Shown: positions 1-24,736 of the stretch, in pieces | Layout of the letters: every line of letters starts with the position of its first letter | Position numbering within the stretch: the first letter of the stretch is position 1 | Assembly (NCBI RefSeq): GCF_011927785.1 | Contig: NZ_JAATJK010000001.1 | Location: forward strand, 1,054,001 to 1,118,000 | Reading direction: 5' to 3' | Source of the DNA: Micromonospora profundi | Lineage (GTDB): Bacteria; Actinomycetota; Actinomycetes; Mycobacteriales; Micromonosporaceae | Length of the DNA: 64,000 bases | Made by a program: the position numbers and the translations under genes | Notes under the pieces: generated by a model | The model's input: only the letters and a program-made list of their open reading frames with translations | Databases searched by the model: none | Told to the model about the DNA's origin: nothing

Positions 1-108
1 TGGCTTCGGGTGACAGCGGGCACCCCTGCCGAGACCGACGCTTTCCTTACCGCGATGGAGACTGTGAGCTTGCGCGCCCCGCAGTCGCGACCGAAAGGCA
101 AGACATGA
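1..108 (+). CDS. hisC: Histidinol-phosphate aminotransferase, C-terminal end (partial)
   Basis: This frame is open from the window edge to a TGA at 106-108 and encodes WLRVTAGTPAETDAFLTAME, which resembles the end of actinobacterial HisC, the PLP enzyme that makes histidinol phosphate. The rest of the gene lies outside the window. Its stop overlaps the hisB start (ATGA, 105-108), so the two are translationally coupled. The last 15 residues, from Val at 64, are encoded by a degenerate copy of the 59-bp repeat found elsewhere in this window, so the tail appears to have been extended by repeat DNA. Only 35 codons are visible; the identity rests on this C-terminal motif and the position before hisB. 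Confidence 0.75.
   Translation, partial: WLRVTAGTPAETDAFLTAMETVSLRAPQSRPKGKT
64..107 (+). repeat. Degenerate copy of the 59-bp junction repeat (hisC/hisB)
   Basis: Positions 76-98 match the 3' half of the intact repeats (for example 24046-24068) at 22 of 23 bases, and 64-69 match its GTGAGC start. About 16 bases between these blocks are missing. The relic is read through as the HisC C-terminus in a frame shifted relative to the intact copies. It still carries CGAAAGG just upstream of the hisB ATG, serving as ribosome-binding site. Confidence 0.7.
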
Positions 109-716
109 GCAGGACCGCCCGGGTGGAACGGATCACCAAGGAGACCAAGGTTCTCGTCGAGATCGACCTCGACGGCACCGGCGCGGCCGAGATCAGCACC
201 GGCGTGGGTTTCTACGACCACATGCTGAACCAGATCGCCCGGCACGGCGGCTTCGACCTGACCGTGCGCACCGTTGGTGACCTGGAGATCGACGCGCACC
301 ACACGATTGAGGACACCGCGCTCGCCCTGGGCGCAGCGTTCGACCAGGCGCTCGGCGACAAGGCGGGCATCCGGCGGTACGGTTCGGCCACGGTGCCGAT
401 GGACGAGGTGCTGGTACGGGCCGCTGTGGACCTGTCCGGCCGGCCGTACGTGGTGCACGACGAGCCGCTGCTCGTGCCGTACATCGGGCCCGTGTACGCG
501 ACGAGCATGACCCGGCACATTTGGGAGTCGTTCGGTCAGGCGGCCCGGGTCACCCTGCACGTCGACGTGCTGCGGGCGGCCCGCCCGGGTGGCCACCCGG
601 ACGCGCACCACGTGGTGGAGGCGCAGTTCAAGGCGGTGTCGCGGGCGCTGCGCGAGGCCACGGCGATCGATCCGCGGGCGGCGGGCGCGATTCCGAGCAC
701 GAAGGGCGCGCTCTGA
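105..716 (+). CDS. hisB: Imidazoleglycerol-phosphate dehydratase
   Basis: This monofunctional HisB (203 aa, normal family length, no phosphatase domain) dehydrates imidazole glycerol phosphate to imidazole acetol phosphate, step six of histidine biosynthesis in the cytosol. The two manganese-binding motifs are present: HHTIED at residues 65-70 and HHVVEA at 168-173. The ATG at 105 is fixed by the ATGA overlap with hisC and by CGAAAGG upstream. The gene ends in TGATG (714-718), where the stop shares one base with the start of a repeat-derived micro-cistron. Neighbours hisC, hisH and priA confirm the operon. Confidence 0.97.
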   Translation: MSRTARVERITKETKVLVEIDLDGTGAAEISTGVGFYDHMLNQIARHGGFDLTVRTVGDLEIDAHHTIEDTALALGAAFDQALGDKAGIRRYGSATVPMDEVLVRAAVDLSGRPYVVHDEPLLVPYIGPVYATSMTRHIWESFGQAARVTLHVDVLRAARPGGHPDAHHVVEAQFKAVSRALREATAIDPRAAGAIPSTKGAL

Positions 717-775
717 TGAGCGCGAGGAGTGCAGCGCAGCGGAGCCCCGCAGTCGCGAATGGAAGGTGTCTCTGA
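716..775 (+). repeat. 59-bp-type junction repeat / micro-cistron between hisB and the small membrane gene
   Basis: An ATG at 716-718, overlapping the hisB TGA, opens a 19-codon frame (MSARSAAQRSPAVANGRCL) that stops at 773-775. That stop shares its A with the next ATG at 775. The core at 717-759 is identical, base for base, to copies at 15956-15998, 16015-16057, 24017-24059 and 24076-24118. After the core this copy diverges but keeps GGAAGG, a Shine-Dalgarno for the next gene. Whether the peptide is made or matters is unknown; the stop-start architecture is read directly from the sequence. Confidence 0.85.
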
Positions 776-13906: not shown

Positions 13907-14068
13907 GGCCCGATCGTAGGCCCGGATGCCGTGCGCCGCCCGTCGAGCAGCTCAGCGCCTGGTGCGCCGTCCGGTGCGTGACTGTCGACATATCCGGTCC
14001 GGGTCGTCGGTGTCGGTGGCTACCGGTAAGGATGAGGGAGATAATTGTGGCTTACGGCGGGGGAGAGC

Positions 14069-15958
14069 GTGGCGAGCGGAACAAGTCGGGACGTACTCGG
14101 CCGAGGGCTGGGAGTCCTCCGGCAGGCCATCCGGGAACAGCCACGCATTTTTGCGGTGGCAGTGCTCGGCAGCGTGCTGTTCGGCGGAATGGTCATCGCC
14201 AGCGCGTTCGTGGTGGGCGCGGTTGTCGGTGACGTGGTGGTGCCGGCCATCGCCCGTGGCGAGGTGGCGACCGGCACGCTGGCGCTGGCCGCCGTGGCGC
14301 TCTTCGGCATCAGCGTGCTGCGGGTCGTGGGGATCTTCGGGCGTCGGCTCGGCGCCGGCTACATGCAGTACCGCCTCCAGGCGGCCTACCGTCGGCGGGT
14401 CACCCGCCGGTACCTGGACCTGCCGCTGTCGTGGCACCACCGCAACGCCACAGGCACCCTGCTGTCCAACGCCAACTCCGATGTGGAGGCGGCCTGGTAT
14501 CCGATCGCGCCACTGCCGTTCGCCGTCGGCACGTTGGTGATGCTGGTCGGCGCGATCGTCTCCCTGTTCGCCACCGACTGGGCGCTCGCCCTGGTCGGCC
14601 TCGCGGTCTTTCCCGCGCTGTTCGCGCTCAACGTGGTCTATTCCCGCCGGATGGCGCCCCGGCAGGCCCGGGCGCAGCGGCTGCGCGCCGAGGTCAGCGA
14701 GATCGCCCACGAGAGCTTCGACGGCGCGCTCGTGGTCAAGACGATGGGCCGCGAGGCGCAGGAGACCACCCGGTTCGCAGGTCGCGCCGGAGAGTTGCGG
14801 GACGCGCTGATCGCGGTCGGCCGCCTGCGGGGCGTCTTCGACCCGCTGCTGGAGACCCTGCCCAGCCTCGGCACCCTGGCGGTGCTTGTGGTCGGGGCGT
14901 TCCGGCTGCGCCAGGGCGCGATCAGCGTGACCGAGCTGGTCAGCGTTGCCTTCCTCTTCACAGTGCTGGCGTTCCCGGTGCGGGCCATCGGCTGGGTGCT
15001 TGCCGAACTGCCGCGCAGCGTCGCCGGCTGGGACCGGGTCCGCCGGGTGCTCGACGCCACCGGCGAGATGCCGTACGGATCCCGCGTGCTCGATCCGGCC
15101 ACCTCCGGCCCGGCCACGCTCACCTTCACGGATGTGCACTTCTCGTACCCGCCGGCGGAGGCGCACCAGACCGGCGCGAAGGTGCTCGGCGCTGTCGGGT
15201 TCACGGTGCCGGCCGGCCGCACGGTGGCTCTGGTCGGGCCGACCGGCGCCGGTAAGTCCACAATCGCCTCGCTGGCGGTGCGTCTCGTCGACCCGGACTC
15301 CGGCACCGTGGAGCTGGACGGTGTGGACGTGCGGGACCTGACCGCCGCCTCGCTGGCGAGCACCGTCGCCCTTGTCGCGCAGGTGCCGTTCGTCTTCGAC
15401 GACACCGTACGGGCCAACATCGCCCTCGACCGGCCGGGCATCGACGACGAGGTGGTCTGGGCGGCGTTGCGGCTGGCCGAGGCGGACGGTTTCGTCGCGG
15501 CGCTGCCCAACGGGCTCGACACGATGGTCGGCGAGCGCGGCACCTCGCTGTCCGGCGGGCAGCGGCAGCGGCTCACGTTGGCCCGCGCGCTGGCGGGGAG
15601 CCCACGTCTGCTGGTGCTCGACGACGCGACGAGCGCGGTGGACCCCCGGGTGGAGGCGGCAATCCTGGCGGGTCTGCGCTCGTCGGCGGGCGAGCCGGGA
15701 GCGCCGATGGCGTCGATCCTCGTCGTCGCGTACCGCCGGGCGACCATCGCGCTGGCCGACGAGGTGATCTACGTCGAGCAGGGCCGGGTGGTGGCCCGGG
15801 GCACGCACACCGAGTTGCTGGGCACGGTCCCCGGGTACGCGGATCTGGTGACCGCGTACGAGCAGGCGGAGGTCGAACGGGCGCAGGAGCGCACGTACGA
15901 CGAGGTGGCGCCGCTGCCGTCGGGCTTGGAGATCGAAAACGAGAGGTCGACCCGGTGA
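14069..15958 (+). CDS. ABC exporter half-transporter, subunit with degenerate catalytic site
   Basis: The 629-aa protein has six N-terminal membrane helices (about 25-310) and a C-terminal ATPase domain: Walker A GPTGAGKST near 390, signature LSGGQRQ near 493 and Walker B LLVLDDATSAVD near 514. The catalytic Glu after Walker B is Asp, so its own Walker site is probably poor at hydrolysis. The GTG at 14069 follows GGGGGAGA; an upstream TTG at 14045 is in frame but unlikely. The last codons (NERSTR) are a partial copy of the junction repeat. It forms a pair with the next gene. Confidence 0.9.
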   Translation: MASGTSRDVLGRGLGVLRQAIREQPRIFAVAVLGSVLFGGMVIASAFVVGAVVGDVVVPAIARGEVATGTLALAAVALFGISVLRVVGIFGRRLGAGYMQYRLQAAYRRRVTRRYLDLPLSWHHRNATGTLLSNANSDVEAAWYPIAPLPFAVGTLVMLVGAIVSLFATDWALALVGLAVFPALFALNVVYSRRMAPRQARAQRLRAEVSEIAHESFDGALVVKTMGREAQETTRFAGRAGELRDALIAVGRLRGVFDPLLETLPSLGTLAVLVVGAFRLRQGAISVTELVSVAFLFTVLAFPVRAIGWVLAELPRSVAGWDRVRRVLDATGEMPYGSRVLDPATSGPATLTFTDVHFSYPPAEAHQTGAKVLGAVGFTVPAGRTVALVGPTGAGKSTIASLAVRLVDPDSGTVELDGVDVRDLTAASLASTVALVAQVPFVFDDTVRANIALDRPGIDDEVVWAALRLAEADGFVAALPNGLDTMVGERGTSLSGGQRQRLTLARALAGSPRLLVLDDATSAVDPRVEAAILAGLRSSAGEPGAPMASILVVAYRRATIALADEVIYVEQGRVVARGTHTELLGTVPGYADLVTAYEQAEVERAQERTYDEVAPLPSGLEIENERSTR

Positions 15959-16076
15959 GCGCGAGGAGTGCAGCGCAGCGGAGCCCCGCAGTCGCGAACG
16001 AGAGGTCGACCCGGTGAGCGCGAGGAGTGCAGCGCAGCGGAGCCCCGCAGTCGCGAACGAAAGGCCAGCCCGGTGA
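15955..16076 (+). repeat. Two tandem 59-bp junction repeats / micro-cistrons between the ABC genes
   Basis: Two head-to-tail units follow the first ABC gene. GTG 15955 to TGA 16017 and GTG 16014 to TGA 16076 each encode 20 residues (VSARSAAQRSPAVANERSTR and the same with ...ERPAR at the end). Every junction is a GTGA overlap: with the upstream stop, between units, and with the second ABC start at 16073. The 43-nt cores (15956-15998, 16015-16057) are identical. The 3' end of the first ABC gene (from about 15936) repeats the unit's tail, so the array is a 2.4-copy tandem duplication of period 59. Confidence 0.9.
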
Positions 16077-17854
16077 GCGCGCAGACGGATGAGCGGGCGG
16101 CGAGGTCAGAGACGACCTGGCAGACGTTGCGGCGTGGGTTGGCGTTGTCGCCGGAGCTGCGGACGGGGTTGGCTGGCACGCTGGCTCTGGCGTTGGTCTA
16201 CATGGTGGGCCGGGTGGCGGTGCCTGTCGCGGTGCAGCAGGGCATCGACCGGGGCATCGTCGGTGGCCTGAACCTGACCGTGATCTGGTCGGTGGTGGCG
16301 ATCACCGCGGCGATCCTGGTGGTTACCACGCTCTGCGGTTACCTGATGATGCGGCGGCTGTTCACTGTCAGCGAGACGGCGTTGGCGAACGTGCGGACGC
16401 GGGCGTTCCGGCACGTGCATGACCTGTCGATGCTGCACCAGCAGTCGGAGCGGCGCGGTTCGTTGGTGTCCCGGGTGACGAGTGACGTCGACCAGATCAC
16501 CCAGTTCCTCCAGTGGGGCGGGGTGATCCTGCTCGTCAATCTGGGGCAGTTGGTGGTCACGACGGCCGTCATGCTGGCGTACTCCTGGCAGTTGACGCTT
16601 GTGGTGTTGGTGGCGTTCCTGCCGGCGGTGTTCATCATCCGGCAGTTGCAGCGTCGCCTCGGCGCGGCGTACGCGACGGTGCGTCAGCGCACCGGCACGT
16701 TGCTGGGCGCGATCGGCGAGAGTGTGGTGGGCGCGCCGGTGATCCGGGCGTACGGCATCGCGGGGCGTACGGCGCGGCGGTTGGACGACGCCATCGACAG
16801 CCAGCGTGTGGCGCAGCAGCGGGCGATCCGGATCAGCATCGTGGGCAGCTCGGTGGGTGAGCTGGCGGCCGGTGTGGCGCTGGCCGGCGTGGTGGTGCTC
16901 GGGGTGACGCTGGGGGTGGACGGCACGCTGTCGATCGGCCAGTTGACGGCGTTCCTGTTCCTGGTGACGTTGTTCATCCAGCCGGTGCAGATCGCCACGG
17001 AGGTGTTGAACGAGGCGCAGAACGCGATCGCTGGTTGGCGGCGGGTGTTGGACGTGCTGGACGTCGCTCCGGACGTGGCCGATCCGGGGGAGCAGGGTCG
17101 GGATCTGCCGGGCGGTCCGTTGGACATCCGGTTCGCCGGGGTGCGGTTCGCCTATCCGGGTGGTCCGCCGGTGCTGCACGACATCGATCTGGAGATCGCG
17201 GCGAAGAGTCGCGTGGCGGTGGTGGGGGAGACCGGCAGCGGCAAGACGACGTTCGCGAAGCTGCTCACCCGGTTGATGGACCCGTCGTCGGGTGCGGTGC
17301 TGCTGTCCGGGGTGCCGCTGTCGGAGGTCCGGTTCGATTCGCTGCGGTCCCGTGTGGTGATGGTGCCGCAGGACGGGTTCCTCTTCGACGCGACGGTGGG
17401 GGACAACGTCCGGTTCGCCCGGCCGGAGTTGACCGATGAGCAGCTCGCTGCGGCGTTCACCGAGTTGGGCCTGGCGGACTGGCTGGATGGTCTGCCGGCG
17501 GGCCTGGACACCCCGGTCGGTGAGCGTGGTGAGGCGCTCAGCGTCGGGGAGCGGCAGTTGGTGGCGTTGGCCCGGGCGTACGTGGCGGATCCGGATCTGC
17601 TGGTGCTGGACGAGGCGACAAGCGCTGTGGACCCGGCGACGGAGGTGCGCCTGCAACGGACGCTGGACGCCGTGACGCGGGGTCGTACGACGCTCGCGAT
17701 CGCGCACCGGCTCTCCACGGCGCAGGCGGCCGACGAGGTGATCGTGGTGGACCGGGGGCGGGTCGTGCAGCGCGGCTCCCATGACGAGTTGGTCCGGGAT
17801 GCCGATTCGGTCTACGGCCTGCTGTACGCGTCGTGGCTGGAGCAGACCAGGTAG
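16073..17854 (+). CDS. ABC exporter half-transporter, subunit with canonical Walker B
   Basis: This 593-aa half-transporter has a membrane domain (about 25-310) and an ATPase domain with Walker A GETGSGKTT near 386 and Walker B LLVLDEATSAVD with catalytic Glu near 510. Its signature motif is LSVGERQ rather than LSGGQRQ. With the previous gene's Asp in place of Glu, this is the expected make-up of a heterodimer with one catalytic and one degenerate ATP site, as in TM287/288 and BmrCD. The GTG at 16073 overlaps the last micro-cistron and has GAAAGG upstream. The substrate is unknown; drug or lipid export is typical. Confidence 0.92.
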   Translation: MSAQTDERAARSETTWQTLRRGLALSPELRTGLAGTLALALVYMVGRVAVPVAVQQGIDRGIVGGLNLTVIWSVVAITAAILVVTTLCGYLMMRRLFTVSETALANVRTRAFRHVHDLSMLHQQSERRGSLVSRVTSDVDQITQFLQWGGVILLVNLGQLVVTTAVMLAYSWQLTLVVLVAFLPAVFIIRQLQRRLGAAYATVRQRTGTLLGAIGESVVGAPVIRAYGIAGRTARRLDDAIDSQRVAQQRAIRISIVGSSVGELAAGVALAGVVVLGVTLGVDGTLSIGQLTAFLFLVTLFIQPVQIATEVLNEAQNAIAGWRRVLDVLDVAPDVADPGEQGRDLPGGPLDIRFAGVRFAYPGGPPVLHDIDLEIAAKSRVAVVGETGSGKTTFAKLLTRLMDPSSGAVLLSGVPLSEVRFDSLRSRVVMVPQDGFLFDATVGDNVRFARPELTDEQLAAAFTELGLADWLDGLPAGLDTPVGERGEALSVGERQLVALARAYVADPDLLVLDEATSAVDPATEVRLQRTLDAVTRGRTTLAIAHRLSTAQAADEVIVVDRGRVVQRGSHDELVRDADSVYGLLYASWLEQTR

Positions 17855-19354: not shown

Positions 19355-19430
19355 CGTCGCCCTTCGTTCGTTTCACAGGCGCAGCCGCCGCACGGCCGCG
19401 CAGGTCTCAGCCGGTACGGCCGCGCAGGTC

Positions 19431-20186
19431 TCAGCCGGTACGTCGGCGCAGGGTGGCCGCCGCGAGCACCAGCGCCAACACCACAGCGCCGAGCACCACC
19501 GCCACGTCCCGCCACATCGTGCCGGTCGGTTCGGCGTGCGCGCCGACCTCCTGCAACGCCTCGACGGCGTACGACAGGGGGAAGGCGTTACTGAGCGCCT
19601 GGAGCCAGCCGGCCATCTGGTCACGGGCCACGAACAGGCCGCACAGCAGCAGTTGGGGGATCACCACGACCGGCAGGAACTGTACTGCCTGGAACTCGGT
19701 GCGGGCGAAGGCGCTGCAGAGCAGGCCGAGGGCGACACCGAGCACGGCGTCGACGACAGCGATGCCGATCACCAGACCGCTGCTGCCTGCCGTCTCCAGA
19801 TCGAAGATCCAGTACGCCACCGCAGCGGCGACCGTGGCCTGCACGGCGGCGGCCAGCCCGAACGCGATGCCGTACCCGAAGAGCAGGTCGAGCTTGCCCA
19901 GCGGGGTGGTGAGCAGGCGTTCCAGGGTGCCGGAGGCGCGTTCCCGGAGCATGGCGATGCTGGTGACCAGGAACATGATCACAAAGGGGAAGATGCCAAG
20001 CATCACCAGCGCGACCCTGTCGAAGGTGGACGGTTGACCGGGCGGGGTCGGCTGGTCGACGTACATGAAATAGACGAGGGTGAGCAGGGCGGTCGGAACC
20101 ACGAGGAGCAGCGCGATCGTGCGCCGGTCGTGCCTGAGCTGGCGCAGGATGCGACCGGTGGTGGCCGCCAGGATCCGCGGGTTCAC
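19431..20186 (-). CDS. ABC-2 type exporter permease
   Basis: A 251-aa permease with six hydrophobic helices and the ABC-2 features MLRERASGTLERLLTTPL (the cytosolic coupling segment) and NAFPLSYAVEAL near the end. The GTG at 20186 overlaps the stop of the ATPase gene (GTGA on this strand), giving [13 protein letters not shown] as N-terminus; the longer open frame upstream overlaps the ATPase gene and is spurious. With the ATPase it forms a drug- or lipid-type exporter. Family members include DrrB-like and YhhJ-like permeases. Confidence 0.9.
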   Translation of the reverse strand: MNPRILAATTGRILRQLRHDRRTIALLLVVPTALLTLVYFMYVDQPTPPGQPSTFDRVALVMLGIFPFVIMFLVTSIAMLRERASGTLERLLTTPLGKLDLLFGYGIAFGLAAAVQATVAAAVAYWIFDLETAGSSGLVIGIAVVDAVLGVALGLLCSAFARTEFQAVQFLPVVVIPQLLLCGLFVARDQMAGWLQALSNAFPLSYAVEALQEVGAHAEPTGTMWRDVAVVLGAVVLALVLAAATLRRRTG

Positions 20187-22413: not shown

Positions 22414-22469
22414 CCACGCGCGTGCGGCGCGGCTGCGCGGCCGCGACCGAAAGGCAGGCTCAGCCATGA
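22410..22469 (+). repeat. Degenerate junction repeat / micro-cistron between hisI and trpE
   Basis: A GTG at 22410 overlapping the hisI stop (GTGA) opens a 19-codon frame ending in a TGA that overlaps the trpE ATG (ATGA, 22466-22469). Its 3' part CGCGACCGAAAGGCA (22442-22456) is identical to the hisC/hisB relic (86-100) and near-identical to the intact repeats. The 5' half has diverged. The stop-start layout is the same as at the intact copies. Confidence 0.65.
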
Positions 22470-24019
22470 CCGACGGCGCGGTGAGCCCGGATCCGGTCAC
22501 CTTCACCGAGCTGGCGGCCCGCTGGCGGGTGGTGCCGGTGACGCGCCGGCTGCTGGCCGACGCGGAGACCCCGGTCGGGGTCTACCGCAAGCTGGCCGGT
22601 GGGCCCGGCACGTTCCTGCTCGAATCGGCCGAGCAGGGCGTCGGCTCCGCCGGCATGGCCTGGTCGCGGTACTCGTTCATCGGCGTGCGCAGCAGCGCCA
22701 CGCTCGTCGAGCGCGACGGCGTGGCGACCTGGCTCGGCCAGCCGCCGGCCGGGCTGCCCACCGAGGGTGACCCGGTGCGGGTGCTGCGGGAGACCGTCGC
22801 GGCGCTTGCCGGCCCGGTCGCCGACGAGGCCAGCGGGATGCCGCCGCTGACCGGGGGCATGGTGGGCTACCTGGGGTACGACCTGGTGCGTCGCTTCGAG
22901 CGGCTGCCCGAGCTGACCGAGGACGACCTCGGTGTGCCGGAGTTGGGCATGATGCTCGCCACCGACCTGGTGGTGCTCGACCACTACGACGGCTCGGCGA
23001 TCCTTGTCGCCAACGCGGTGCTGCCACCGCTGGGCACTCCGGGCCGCGACGAGCAGGTCACCGCCGCGTACCACCACGCGGTGGGACGGCTCGACGCGAT
23101 GACCACCGCACTGTCCCGACCCATCCCGCCGATGATCTCCACGGTGGAGCGTCCGCCGGCCGGCGAGGTCCTCTGCCGTACGCCCGAGGGTGGCTATCCG
23201 AAGGCGGTGGAGGCGGCCAAGGAGGCGATCCGGGCCGGTGAGTGCTTCCAGATCGTGCTGTCGCAGCGGTTCGAGCGGGAGACGCACGCCGATCCGCTGG
23301 ACGTGTACCGGGTGCTGCGCACCAGCAACCCCAGCCCGTACATGTACCTGCTGCGCTTCGACGGGTTCGACATCGTCGGCTCGTCGCCGGAGGCGCACCT
23401 GAAGGTCACCGCGGGCTCGGACGGGCGACGACGGGCGTTGTTGCACCCGATCGCCGGTACGCGGCCCCGCGGTGGCACCCCGGCCGCCGACGCGGCGCTC
23501 GCCGCCGAACTGCTCGCCGACCCGAAGGAACGGGCCGAGCACGTGATGCTCGTCGACCTGGGCCGCAACGACCTGGGTCGGGTCTGCGAGCCGGGCAGCG
23601 TGGAGGTGCCCGAGTTCGCCACCATCGAGCGGTACAGCCACGTGATGCACATCGTCTCGACTGTGATCGGCACGCTGCGTGACGATCGTTCGGCGTTCGA
23701 CGCGCTCGCCGCGACCTTCCCGGCCGGCACTCTGTCGGGTGCTCCCAAGGTGCGGGCCATGGAGATCATCGAGGAGTTGGAGCCGGTCCGGCGTGGCGTG
23801 TACGGCGGCACTGTCGGCTACTTCGGCTTCGGCGGCGACCTCGACATGGCGATCGCCATCCGTACCGCGCTGATCCGCCAGGGCCGCGCGTACGTGCAGG
23901 CGGGCGCTGGGGTGGTCGCCGACTCGGATCCGGCCGCCGAGGACCAGGAGACCCGCGCGAAGGCCGCCGCAGTGCTGGCGGCGATCGCCGCCGCCGAAAC
24001 GCTCCGGGCTGCCCGGTGA
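22466..24019 (+). CDS. trpE: Anthranilate synthase component I
   Basis: TrpE (517 aa) converts chorismate and ammonia to anthranilate, the first committed step to tryptophan. The feedback-inhibition motif LLES is at 51-54, so tryptophan probably inhibits it. The C-terminal chorismate-binding domain shows PSPYMYLLRFDGFDIVGSSPEAHLKV, IAGTRPRG, DLGRNDLGRV, FPAGTLSGAPKVRAMEIIEELE and GAGVVADSDP (given as separate blocks). The ATG at 22466 overlaps the preceding micro-cistron; AAAGG lies upstream. No trpG is in the window. The stop overlaps another micro-cistron (GTGA). Confidence 0.96.
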   Translation: MTDGAVSPDPVTFTELAARWRVVPVTRRLLADAETPVGVYRKLAGGPGTFLLESAEQGVGSAGMAWSRYSFIGVRSSATLVERDGVATWLGQPPAGLPTEGDPVRVLRETVAALAGPVADEASGMPPLTGGMVGYLGYDLVRRFERLPELTEDDLGVPELGMMLATDLVVLDHYDGSAILVANAVLPPLGTPGRDEQVTAAYHHAVGRLDAMTTALSRPIPPMISTVERPPAGEVLCRTPEGGYPKAVEAAKEAIRAGECFQIVLSQRFERETHADPLDVYRVLRTSNPSPYMYLLRFDGFDIVGSSPEAHLKVTAGSDGRRRALLHPIAGTRPRGGTPAADAALAAELLADPKERAEHVMLVDLGRNDLGRVCEPGSVEVPEFATIERYSHVMHIVSTVIGTLRDDRSAFDALAATFPAGTLSGAPKVRAMEIIEELEPVRRGVYGGTVGYFGFGGDLDMAIAIRTALIRQGRAYVQAGAGVVADSDPAAEDQETRAKAAAVLAAIAAAETLRAAR

Positions 24020-24137
24020 GCGCGAGGAGTGCAGCGCAGCGGAGCCCCGCAGTCGCGAACGAAAGGTCGGCCCGATGAGCGCGAGGAGTGCAGCGCAGCG
24101 GAGCCCCGCAGTCGCGAACGAAAGGTCGGCCCGATGA
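24016..24137 (+). repeat. Two tandem 59-bp junction repeats / micro-cistrons after trpE
   Basis: GTG 24016-TGA 24078 and ATG 24075-TGA 24137 each encode a 20-residue peptide beginning (V/M)SARSAAQRSPAVANERSAR. The first overlaps the trpE stop, the two overlap each other (ATGA), and the second overlaps the next gene's ATG at 24134. Cores 24017-24059 and 24076-24118 are identical to each other and to the copies at hisB and the ABC genes. The tails (CGAAAGGTCGGCCCGATG) are identical here but differ from the ABC locus, indicating local tandem duplication. Confidence 0.9.
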
Positions 24138-24736
24138 GTGGGGCGGATGTTGGTGAGGGGCCGGAGGGCGGGGTGGCGACGGGTCGGCGTCAGCTGACGT
24201 ACGCCGTGCTGTTCGGTCTGGTGGGCGCGGCGCTGGCGCTGTGGGCGGCGACCCGGAGTTGGTCGGTGGAGGTGACGGCGCGTCCGGCCCCGTTGCCGGC
24301 GGTGCGTGATGTCCGCAGTGGGGCGGCGCTGCTGCCGTGGCTGCCGGCGTTGGCTCTGGTCGCGTTGGCGGGTGGCGGCGCGGTGTTGGCCACGCGGGGC
24401 TGGCTGCGCCGGGCGGTGGGTGTCCTGCTGGGGGTGCTGGGCCTGGCGGTGGCTGCTGGCGGTGGGTACGGGCTGGTCGCCGACCTCGGTGGTGTGGTGA
24501 GCAGGCAGTGGCCGGCGCTCTGTCTGCTCGGCGGTCTGCTGGCCGCGGTGGGCGGTGGGTGGACCGCGTTGCGGGGCGGAGGCTGGCCGGCGATGGGTGC
24601 CCGGTACGAACGACCGACGCGAACCGTTACAGAGAGTGAGCCTGAGGCGGCTGGGCGTCCCGGCCCGATGGCCGGGAGGCGGACCACCGAGGCGTGGGAC
24701 GCGCTGGACCGGGGCGAGGATCCGACGGCCACCTGA
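24134..24736 (+). CDS. Trp biosynthesis-associated membrane protein
   Basis: This 200-aa protein fits the actinobacterial Trp-operon-associated family (TIGR02234-like). It has four predicted membrane helices (about 19-35, 63-84, 90-112 and 124-140), a conserved WSVEVTARPAPLPAV segment after the first helix, and a polar C-terminus. It always sits next to trpE or trpC in these genomes; its role is unproven. ATG 24134 is set by GAAAGG and overlap with the preceding micro-cistron. A hairpin begins in its stop codon, so transcription may end here, with trpC on its own promoter. Confidence 0.85.
   Translation: MSGADVGEGPEGGVATGRRQLTYAVLFGLVGAALALWAATRSWSVEVTARPAPLPAVRDVRSGAALLPWLPALALVALAGGGAVLATRGWLRRAVGVLLGVLGLAVAAGGGYGLVADLGGVVSRQWPALCLLGGLLAAVGGGWTALRGGGWPAMGARYERPTRTVTESEPEAAGRPGPMAGRRTTEAWDALDRGEDPTAT

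Follow-up and report, generated by a model that had tools for sequence, protein, structure and literature searches.

A short dispersed repeat of Micromonosporaceae lies in constrained phase at stop-start gene overlaps and is probably tolerated as a translational relay

MITEs, ERIC sequences and Correia-type elements are small non-autonomous dispersed repeats that are sometimes found between the genes of an operon, and Rickettsia palindromic elements insert in frame into genes, where they extend proteins by a multiple of three nucleotides (3n). Coupled translation across gene junctions is known from overlapping gene pairs, where termination-reinitiation is experimentally established; of 14 pairs tested by Huber et al. 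(2019; PMC6728339), 13 are reported to be strictly coupled. The repeat that we describe here resembles REP and REPIN sequences with their RAYTs, as characterized in PMC3116915, in being short, dispersed, clustered and non-autonomous, with many copies per genome. Unlike REPs, which the same source describes as palindromic and extragenic, it lies within gene overlaps, in one orientation and without a supported palindrome fold, and its arrays are direct tandems rather than inverted pairs of a palindromic unit, with folds not above those of shuffled sequences. Both joints of the repeat belong to the same type as those of the ATGA and TGATG pairs of PMC6728339; there, the overlap joins two genes directly, whereas here at least one cistron of 20 codons is interposed and the overlap is duplicated. 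Among the matches listed from open-access literature, mainly titles and the beginnings of abstracts, there was no account of the repeat or of the junction rule described below, which is weak evidence of absence. We consider it probable that the repeat is a dispersed element tolerated at stop-start overlaps, where it would preserve termination-reinitiation coupling by way of a relay cistron of about 20 codons.

The window analyzed is a stretch of 64,000 nucleotides from Micromonospora profundi (contig NZ_JAATJK010000001.1, positions 1,054,001 to 1,118,000). It holds five copies of the repeat, all on the forward strand, at 716, 15955, 16014, 24016 and 24075 (47-nt query, at most 3 mismatches), compared with a chance expectation of 0.00 and none in 100 shuffles (Table 1). 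The original prediction, made from the letters of this window, had described five copies with a shared 43-nt core and a 59-nt spacing that form micro-cistrons of about 20 codons tied to their neighbors by stop-start overlaps, and the anatomy proved to be as claimed. The core common to the window copies is TGAGCGCGAGG...GTCGCGAA, the tandem spacing given by a repeat finder is 59 nt in both arrays, and each unit is an open frame of 19-20 codons. In the first unit of each tandem array (15955/16014 and 24016/24075) the upstream TGA is contained in the GTGA of the unit, and in both arrays the NTGA of the next start closes each unit. The hisB copy has a TGATG joint at both sides (TGA 714-716 with ATG 716, and TGA 773-775 with ATG 775). 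Exit starts of the window units are preceded by GAGAGG, GAAAGG or GGAAGG, which had been proposed to act as the next Shine-Dalgarno sequence.

Table 1. Repeat copies and their partner genes in the window (positions counted from its first letter)
Feature	Positions	Strand	Support
Degenerate, truncated sixth copy (GTGAGCTTGCGCGCCCCGCAGTCGCGACCGAAAGG)	~64..98	+	sequence; core match G000:C1:1054074
hisB, imidazoleglycerol-phosphate dehydratase; upstream partner of copy 1	105..716	+	PF00475, E 9.5e-56
Copy 1; begins ATGAGCGCG, finishes GGAAGGTGTCTCTG; micro-frame MSARSAAQRSPAVANGRCL*; TGA 773-775 overlaps ATG 775	716..774	+	
ABC transporter 1, upstream partner; start per ORF tool	14045..15958	+	PF00005/PF00664
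Copy 2, unit 1 of ABC/ABC array; GTGAGCGCG...GAACGAGAGGTCGACCCG, 59 nt	15955..16013	+	
Copy 3, unit 2 of ABC/ABC array; 59 nt; exit Shine-Dalgarno GAAAGG; micro-frame VSARSAAQRSPAVANERPAR* into GTGA of next gene	16014..16072	+	
ABC transporter 2, downstream partner; start GTG 16073	16073..17854	+	PF00664/PF00005; end per ORF list
trpE, anthranilate synthase I, upstream partner; start approximate	22460..24019	+	PF00425, PF04715
Copy 4, unit 1 of trpE array; GTGAGCGCG...GAAAGGTCGGCCCG, 59 nt	24016..24074	+	
Copy 5, unit 2 of trpE array; ATGAGCGCG...GAAAGGTCGGCCCG; micro-frame MSARSAAQRSPAVANERSAR* into ATGA of next gene	24075..24133	+	
Tryptophan-associated transmembrane protein, downstream partner; start ATG 24134	24134..24736	+	PF09534, E 4.9e-30

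Several smaller observations concern the same stretch. By eye, the frame upstream of hisB continues through the truncated copy at 64-98, which supplies its C-terminal tail (...SLRAPQSRPKGKT*); the TGA of this frame (106-108) overlaps the hisB start at ATG 105, and from position only the gene is probably hisC. The 57-codon frame on the 3' side of the hisB copy gave no Pfam match. The C-terminus of ABC transporter 1 (15930-15958) reads ENERSTR*, compared with mostly EVDR*-type ends in relatives, and agrees with the last part of a repeat unit. It looks like the in-frame fused end of a further unit, as though recombination had removed the bulk of an additional copy. Elsewhere in the window, the repeat finder reported a perfect 24-nt tandem duplication (ACGGCCGCGCAGGTCTCAGCCGGT twice, 19392-19439), a length that is a multiple of three.

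A search for the core beyond the window, envisaged with the original prediction, gave 47 matches in the genome of origin at up to 3 mismatches (reversed-pattern control, 1). These fall in 34 places, mostly at stop/start junctions: 30 arrays with an NTGA head, recognized with a loose pattern, one copy inside a gene (L030), the degenerate copy ahead of hisB, a decayed copy (L042), and L039, which looks like a chance match in coding sequence. The neighbors of the copies are co-directional genes. For the 30 headed arrays of this genome, Pfam matches were obtained for 26 downstream and 27 upstream partner proteins, two of the latter (hisB and trpE) having been supplied as references from the window, and pairs such as ArgJ/AA_kinase, RNase PH/Ham1, aminotransferase/AAA_26 and GCS2/FGE-sulfatase are plausible operon neighbors by their Pfam assignments.

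Reading phase was followed in 95 arrays from four genomes, 92 of them headed; two genomes (G034 and G004) contributed 20 stretches each and so only part of their copies, and the head pattern allows 3 mismatches, with odd heads (e.g. L033, L279, L283) kept in the counts. Most headed arrays carry the stop/start codon overlap, of ATGA or TGATG type, by which overlap-coupled gene pairs are recognized. The frame set by the last head meets its first stop within an NTGA in 73 of 92 arrays, in TGATG or TAATG in 4 and elsewhere in 3, and it runs on in 12. A less circular measure takes the reading frame of the downstream gene from its GC content by codon position. By this measure 89 arrays could be classified (3 were ambiguous), and the last unit stands in overlap phase (phase 2) to the downstream gene in 74, in frame (phase 0) in 12 and in phase 1 in 3. 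The binomial probability of the phase 2 count against 1/3 is 5e-22, a value that overstates independence, as some arrays are orthologous. The genome of origin alone gives 26/2/1 (overlap/in-frame/out), and a separate set of 57 arrays, taken from stretches of relatives no longer than 20 kb, gives 46/8/3. On the other side, the upstream frame is in register with the TGA of the unit in 78 of 81 arrays (11 ambiguous), and this TGA is the actual upstream stop in 25 of the 30 headed arrays of the genome of origin, the other five upstream genes ending 2-10 nt earlier. Tandem spacings inside arrays are looser (20 in phase 2, 15 in phase 0, 3 in phase 1; n=38). The phase across the repeat is thus constrained: the last unit keeps a length of 3n+2, or of 3n if it is fused in frame. 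Exit distances in the 67 arrays used for the flank comparison are 53, 56, 59, 62 or 65 nt, values set by the selection of those arrays.

Filled junctions also retain the signals for initiation. The upstream stop is kept in the entry NTGA, for which a Shine-Dalgarno sequence persists in the tail of the upstream gene, and the exit start, usually again an NTGA, lies behind a Shine-Dalgarno sequence. Across 69 arrays the mean pairing energy is -7.5 kcal/mol at the entry and -8.83 kcal/mol at the exit, compared with -3.17 kcal/mol for random coding 16-mers; pairing of -5 kcal/mol or better is found for 53 entries and 64 exits, and for 27% of the random 16-mers.

Comparison of orthologous junctions with and without the repeat, also suggested along with the original prediction, shows the same sites to be filled or to be bare NTGA. 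At the junction of trpE with the membrane gene, many relatives have a bare ATGA or GTGA and others have 1-3 units after the same NTGA; among the matches listed, the 5 named loci from other genera of the family all have a trpE that finishes with a bare ATGA. Within the genus, the ABC/ABC junction is likewise filled in some relatives and a plain NTGA overlap in others, and at a third junction the sister loci L202 and L201 are filled and empty, respectively. Core matches are present at 18 of 66, 33 of 54 and 4 of 64 loci for trpE, ABC/ABC and the third junction, the last with an additional diverged copy in L185. On the trpE tree the presence of the repeat requires at least 13, 16 and 4 changes at these junctions, counts that do not separate gain from loss and that over-estimate change, as degenerate or diverged copies were scored absent (e.g. 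L196, L203 and L217 at trpE, L185 at the third junction). Strongly supported branches force 11 changes of the trpE label, which is mildly clustered (13 changes versus a shuffled mean of 16, with 20-27 of 500 shuffles as low). The number of units at one junction varies from 1 to 5 between species. The presence of the repeat is labile. Because the outgroup junctions are empty, gain is simpler than loss, and insertion at pre-existing NTGA overlaps would be the simplest reading. At the ABC/ABC junction of L240 and L243, the first units are truncated yet the entry GTGA is intact, which suggests unit loss under the same constraint on the joint.

These comparisons bear on the proposal that the repeat has been selected as a translational-coupling linker. 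Its position at junctions and the constraint on phase are upheld, but the adaptive part is not, given that many relatives have plain NTGA overlaps and that presence changes often. An adaptive linker would be a positively selected part that couples two genes or sets their ratio, each unit adding a strong second Shine-Dalgarno sequence and an extra termination-reinitiation step, such that the number of units tunes the ratio of downstream to upstream protein. The constrained phase, the strong exit Shine-Dalgarno sequence, the often plausible operon partners and the range of one to five units at a single junction would all fit such a role. Nevertheless, we regard it as unlikely, since many relatives do without the repeat at the same junction, none of the three junctions is filled in every locus, and a tolerated insertion predicts the phase constraint equally well.

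The encoded peptide is not conserved. Variants A, C and D read ...SPAVANER..., whereas variant B reads ...RAPQSRTK..., its spacer length compensating, and substitutions at codon positions 1/2/3 number 21/47/48 in variant A, 45/45/45 in B and 3/7/6 in C. We conclude that phase is constrained and the peptide is not. A conserved peptide was rejected on the grounds that the 3' half of variant B lies in another frame and that third positions show no excess over second positions. The same results make it very improbable that the unit is a regulatory micro-ORF, whose peptide or codons would sense a signal in the manner of an attenuator or leader peptide and so regulate the downstream gene. The nucleotide sequence is conserved, the frame is open and there are copies in the his-trp region of the window, as such a device would require; against it, the peptide differs between variants A/C/D and B, the substitutions lack a third-position excess, no fold is shared, and the partner genes are drawn from unrelated pathways.

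The original prediction also held that the core can fold into a hairpin with a CGCGA/TCGCG stem, and this claim is not supported. Folding of 12 typed unit variants gave z-scores of -1.5 to +1.6 relative to shuffles and no shared structure. In 113 distinct units the five pairs of the stem are formed in 540 of 565 cells, almost all by invariance, and for this reason the count is uninformative either way; where the stem varies, 2 cells are compensatory versus 25 broken. Neither the folds of the 12 variants, which are not above shuffles, nor the stem pairs counted over the 113 units support a function of the hairpin. We accordingly give hardly any credence to an RNA hairpin or REP-type processing element that affects mRNA stability: the stem could pair, as just described, but the folds, the broken pairs and a search of Rfam, with no match up to an E value of 1 in window positions 15800-16200, all speak against it.

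We instead favor the reading in which the repeat is tolerated. It would insert repeatedly at NTGA overlaps of co-directional genes and then often multiply in tandem. Ribosomes ending the upstream gene would restart at the overlapping NTG with the help of the old Shine-Dalgarno sequence, read the micro-cistron of about 20 codons, come to its stop within the following NTGA, and from there reinitiate on the true downstream gene. With such a relay across the micro-cistron, the insertion would be nearly silent for translational coupling. Selection on phase, rather than on a peptide or a hairpin, would then maintain what is mainly a passenger. That length is mostly kept such that protein synthesis could cross the repeat points to a passenger of the genome, one organized around the apparatus of translation.

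The flanks of the filled sites offer some indication of how copies might spread. At the filled site L202 the arrangement is AGGAGGCGTCGTGA-core-AGGAGGCGTCGTGA, which is to say that Shine-Dalgarno sequence, spacer and NTGA are duplicated. In 67 arrays the suffix shared by entry and exit flanks averages 1.84 nt, compared with 0.70 nt after permutation (0 of 5000 permutations as high), and the signal is weak for variant C alone (164 of 5000). Long duplications are rare, with at least 10 nt shared in 2 of the 67 arrays and at least 4 nt in 10; long exact cases are L040, L007, L202, L212, L319, L213 and L241. Where duplications are clear they span about 13-18 nt and contain the Shine-Dalgarno sequence and the NTGA. 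L219 (filled) and L228 (empty) form a close pair in which the spacer at the exit is no copy of the target flank, and a search of the L219 genome for a donor of this spacer found only the spacer itself and a site with 3 mismatches. As the spacer is not derived from the target, the return point of copying seems to vary. Copying may enter at NTGA(GCG) and return at the Shine-Dalgarno sequence or at the NTGA, and spread could occur by template switching at short homologies (NTGAGCG, AGG) or through some recombinase, both of which fit.

A more specific version of the spreading step, which does not contradict the favored reading, is site-specific transposition, wherein a recombinase or transposase would recognize NTGA-type start regions and would mobilize the repeat as a non-autonomous, MITE-like element, duplicating about 13-18 nt of the target. 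Several insertions have an exact flank duplication, presence is scattered, and the ends are conserved around a middle that varies, genus g6 having a version of about 98 nt (L323). However, no autonomous copy or enzyme was identified, the terminal inverted repeat is only about 5 nt (CGCGA/TCGCG), the in-gene copy exists without an NTGA, and flank matches are usually short or absent, so that we hold this possibility to be doubtful, if still worth entertaining. With respect to MITEs, ERIC sequences and Correia-type elements, the repeat differs in these short inverted ends and in a flank duplication that, where clear, carries translation signals; the duplication that would correspond to a target-site duplication is clear in few loci and significant overall. 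Among the 5'-half matches listed for the genome of origin, none was shown adjoining a transposase. A phage or plasmid origin was rejected, as the viral contigs searched gave no exact 21-nt match to the repeat and plasmids gave no blastn match to a 51-nt unit.

The copy inside a gene illustrates how phase may govern survival. L030 (G000:C1:464492, around 1479) is a copy of variant C that sits within a peptidase gene and keeps its frame (ASARSELASPAVASNDG...); we take the gene to encode a PepN-like peptidase. The distance between conserved blocks of this gene is 75 nt, compared with 18 nt in 12 of the 12 relatives of the same genus that gave a match, and hence the insert is 57 nt, or 3n. Survival might thus follow 3n inside a gene and 3n+2 at a joint, the single in-gene case being an illustration rather than a statistic. 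This frame-keeping insertion into a coding gene, found for one copy only, is what likens the repeat to Rickettsia palindromic elements, short repeats that are likewise tolerated by respecting the reading frame; proteins that contain such elements are named in PMC2635572. The rule at junctions is unlike that of the Rickettsia elements in being 3n+2, which yields a separate cistron.

Taken further, these features would describe a class of mobile DNA that targets a translation signal, entering at the NTGA and leaving a duplicated Shine-Dalgarno-spacer-NTGA at its exit, with both genes intact and a disposable micro-cistron as the relay. We advance this idea tentatively, as one that may well prove wrong. 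If it is true, 'translation-silent' insertion into operons constitutes a niche, and phase (3n+2 at junctions, 3n in genes) is its survival rule. It would show that the interior of an operon, expected to be closed to insertions, is open to a repeat that mimics a stop/start joint. Moreover, orthologous junctions with one to five relay cistrons form a natural series in which the efficiency with which ribosomes terminate and restart could be measured. For annotation there is a risk that the micro-frame is mistaken for extra N-terminal sequence (MSARS...) belonging to the downstream gene.

With regard to its wider distribution, a search of 81 genomes of the genus found the repeat in every one, with 5 to 75 matches each and none in controls. 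Across the family, matches at up to 2 mismatches occur in 70 of 150 genomes, which represent 23 of 44 genera, some genomes having only one or two weak matches, and in the order 37 of 249 genomes match, with a match in 1 of the 207 that lie outside the family. Its distribution is patchy across the family, and almost no other member of the order carries it. As part of the favored reading, we think it likely that the copies make up a family of short dispersed Micromonosporaceae repeats whose core measures about 40-46 nt and whose length including the joint is mostly 53-65 nt. Copies examined in other genera keep both ends and vary in the middle, and several lie away from NTGA joints (e.g. L307, L316, L322). 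L323 and L308 (genus g27) have the same ends with the middle expanded or replaced, the spacing in L323 being about 98 nt. In L304 (G088), an array of six matches has a 60-nt spacing and units that start with GTGAAGCGCGAGG, and its frame rule differs from that of the junction type.
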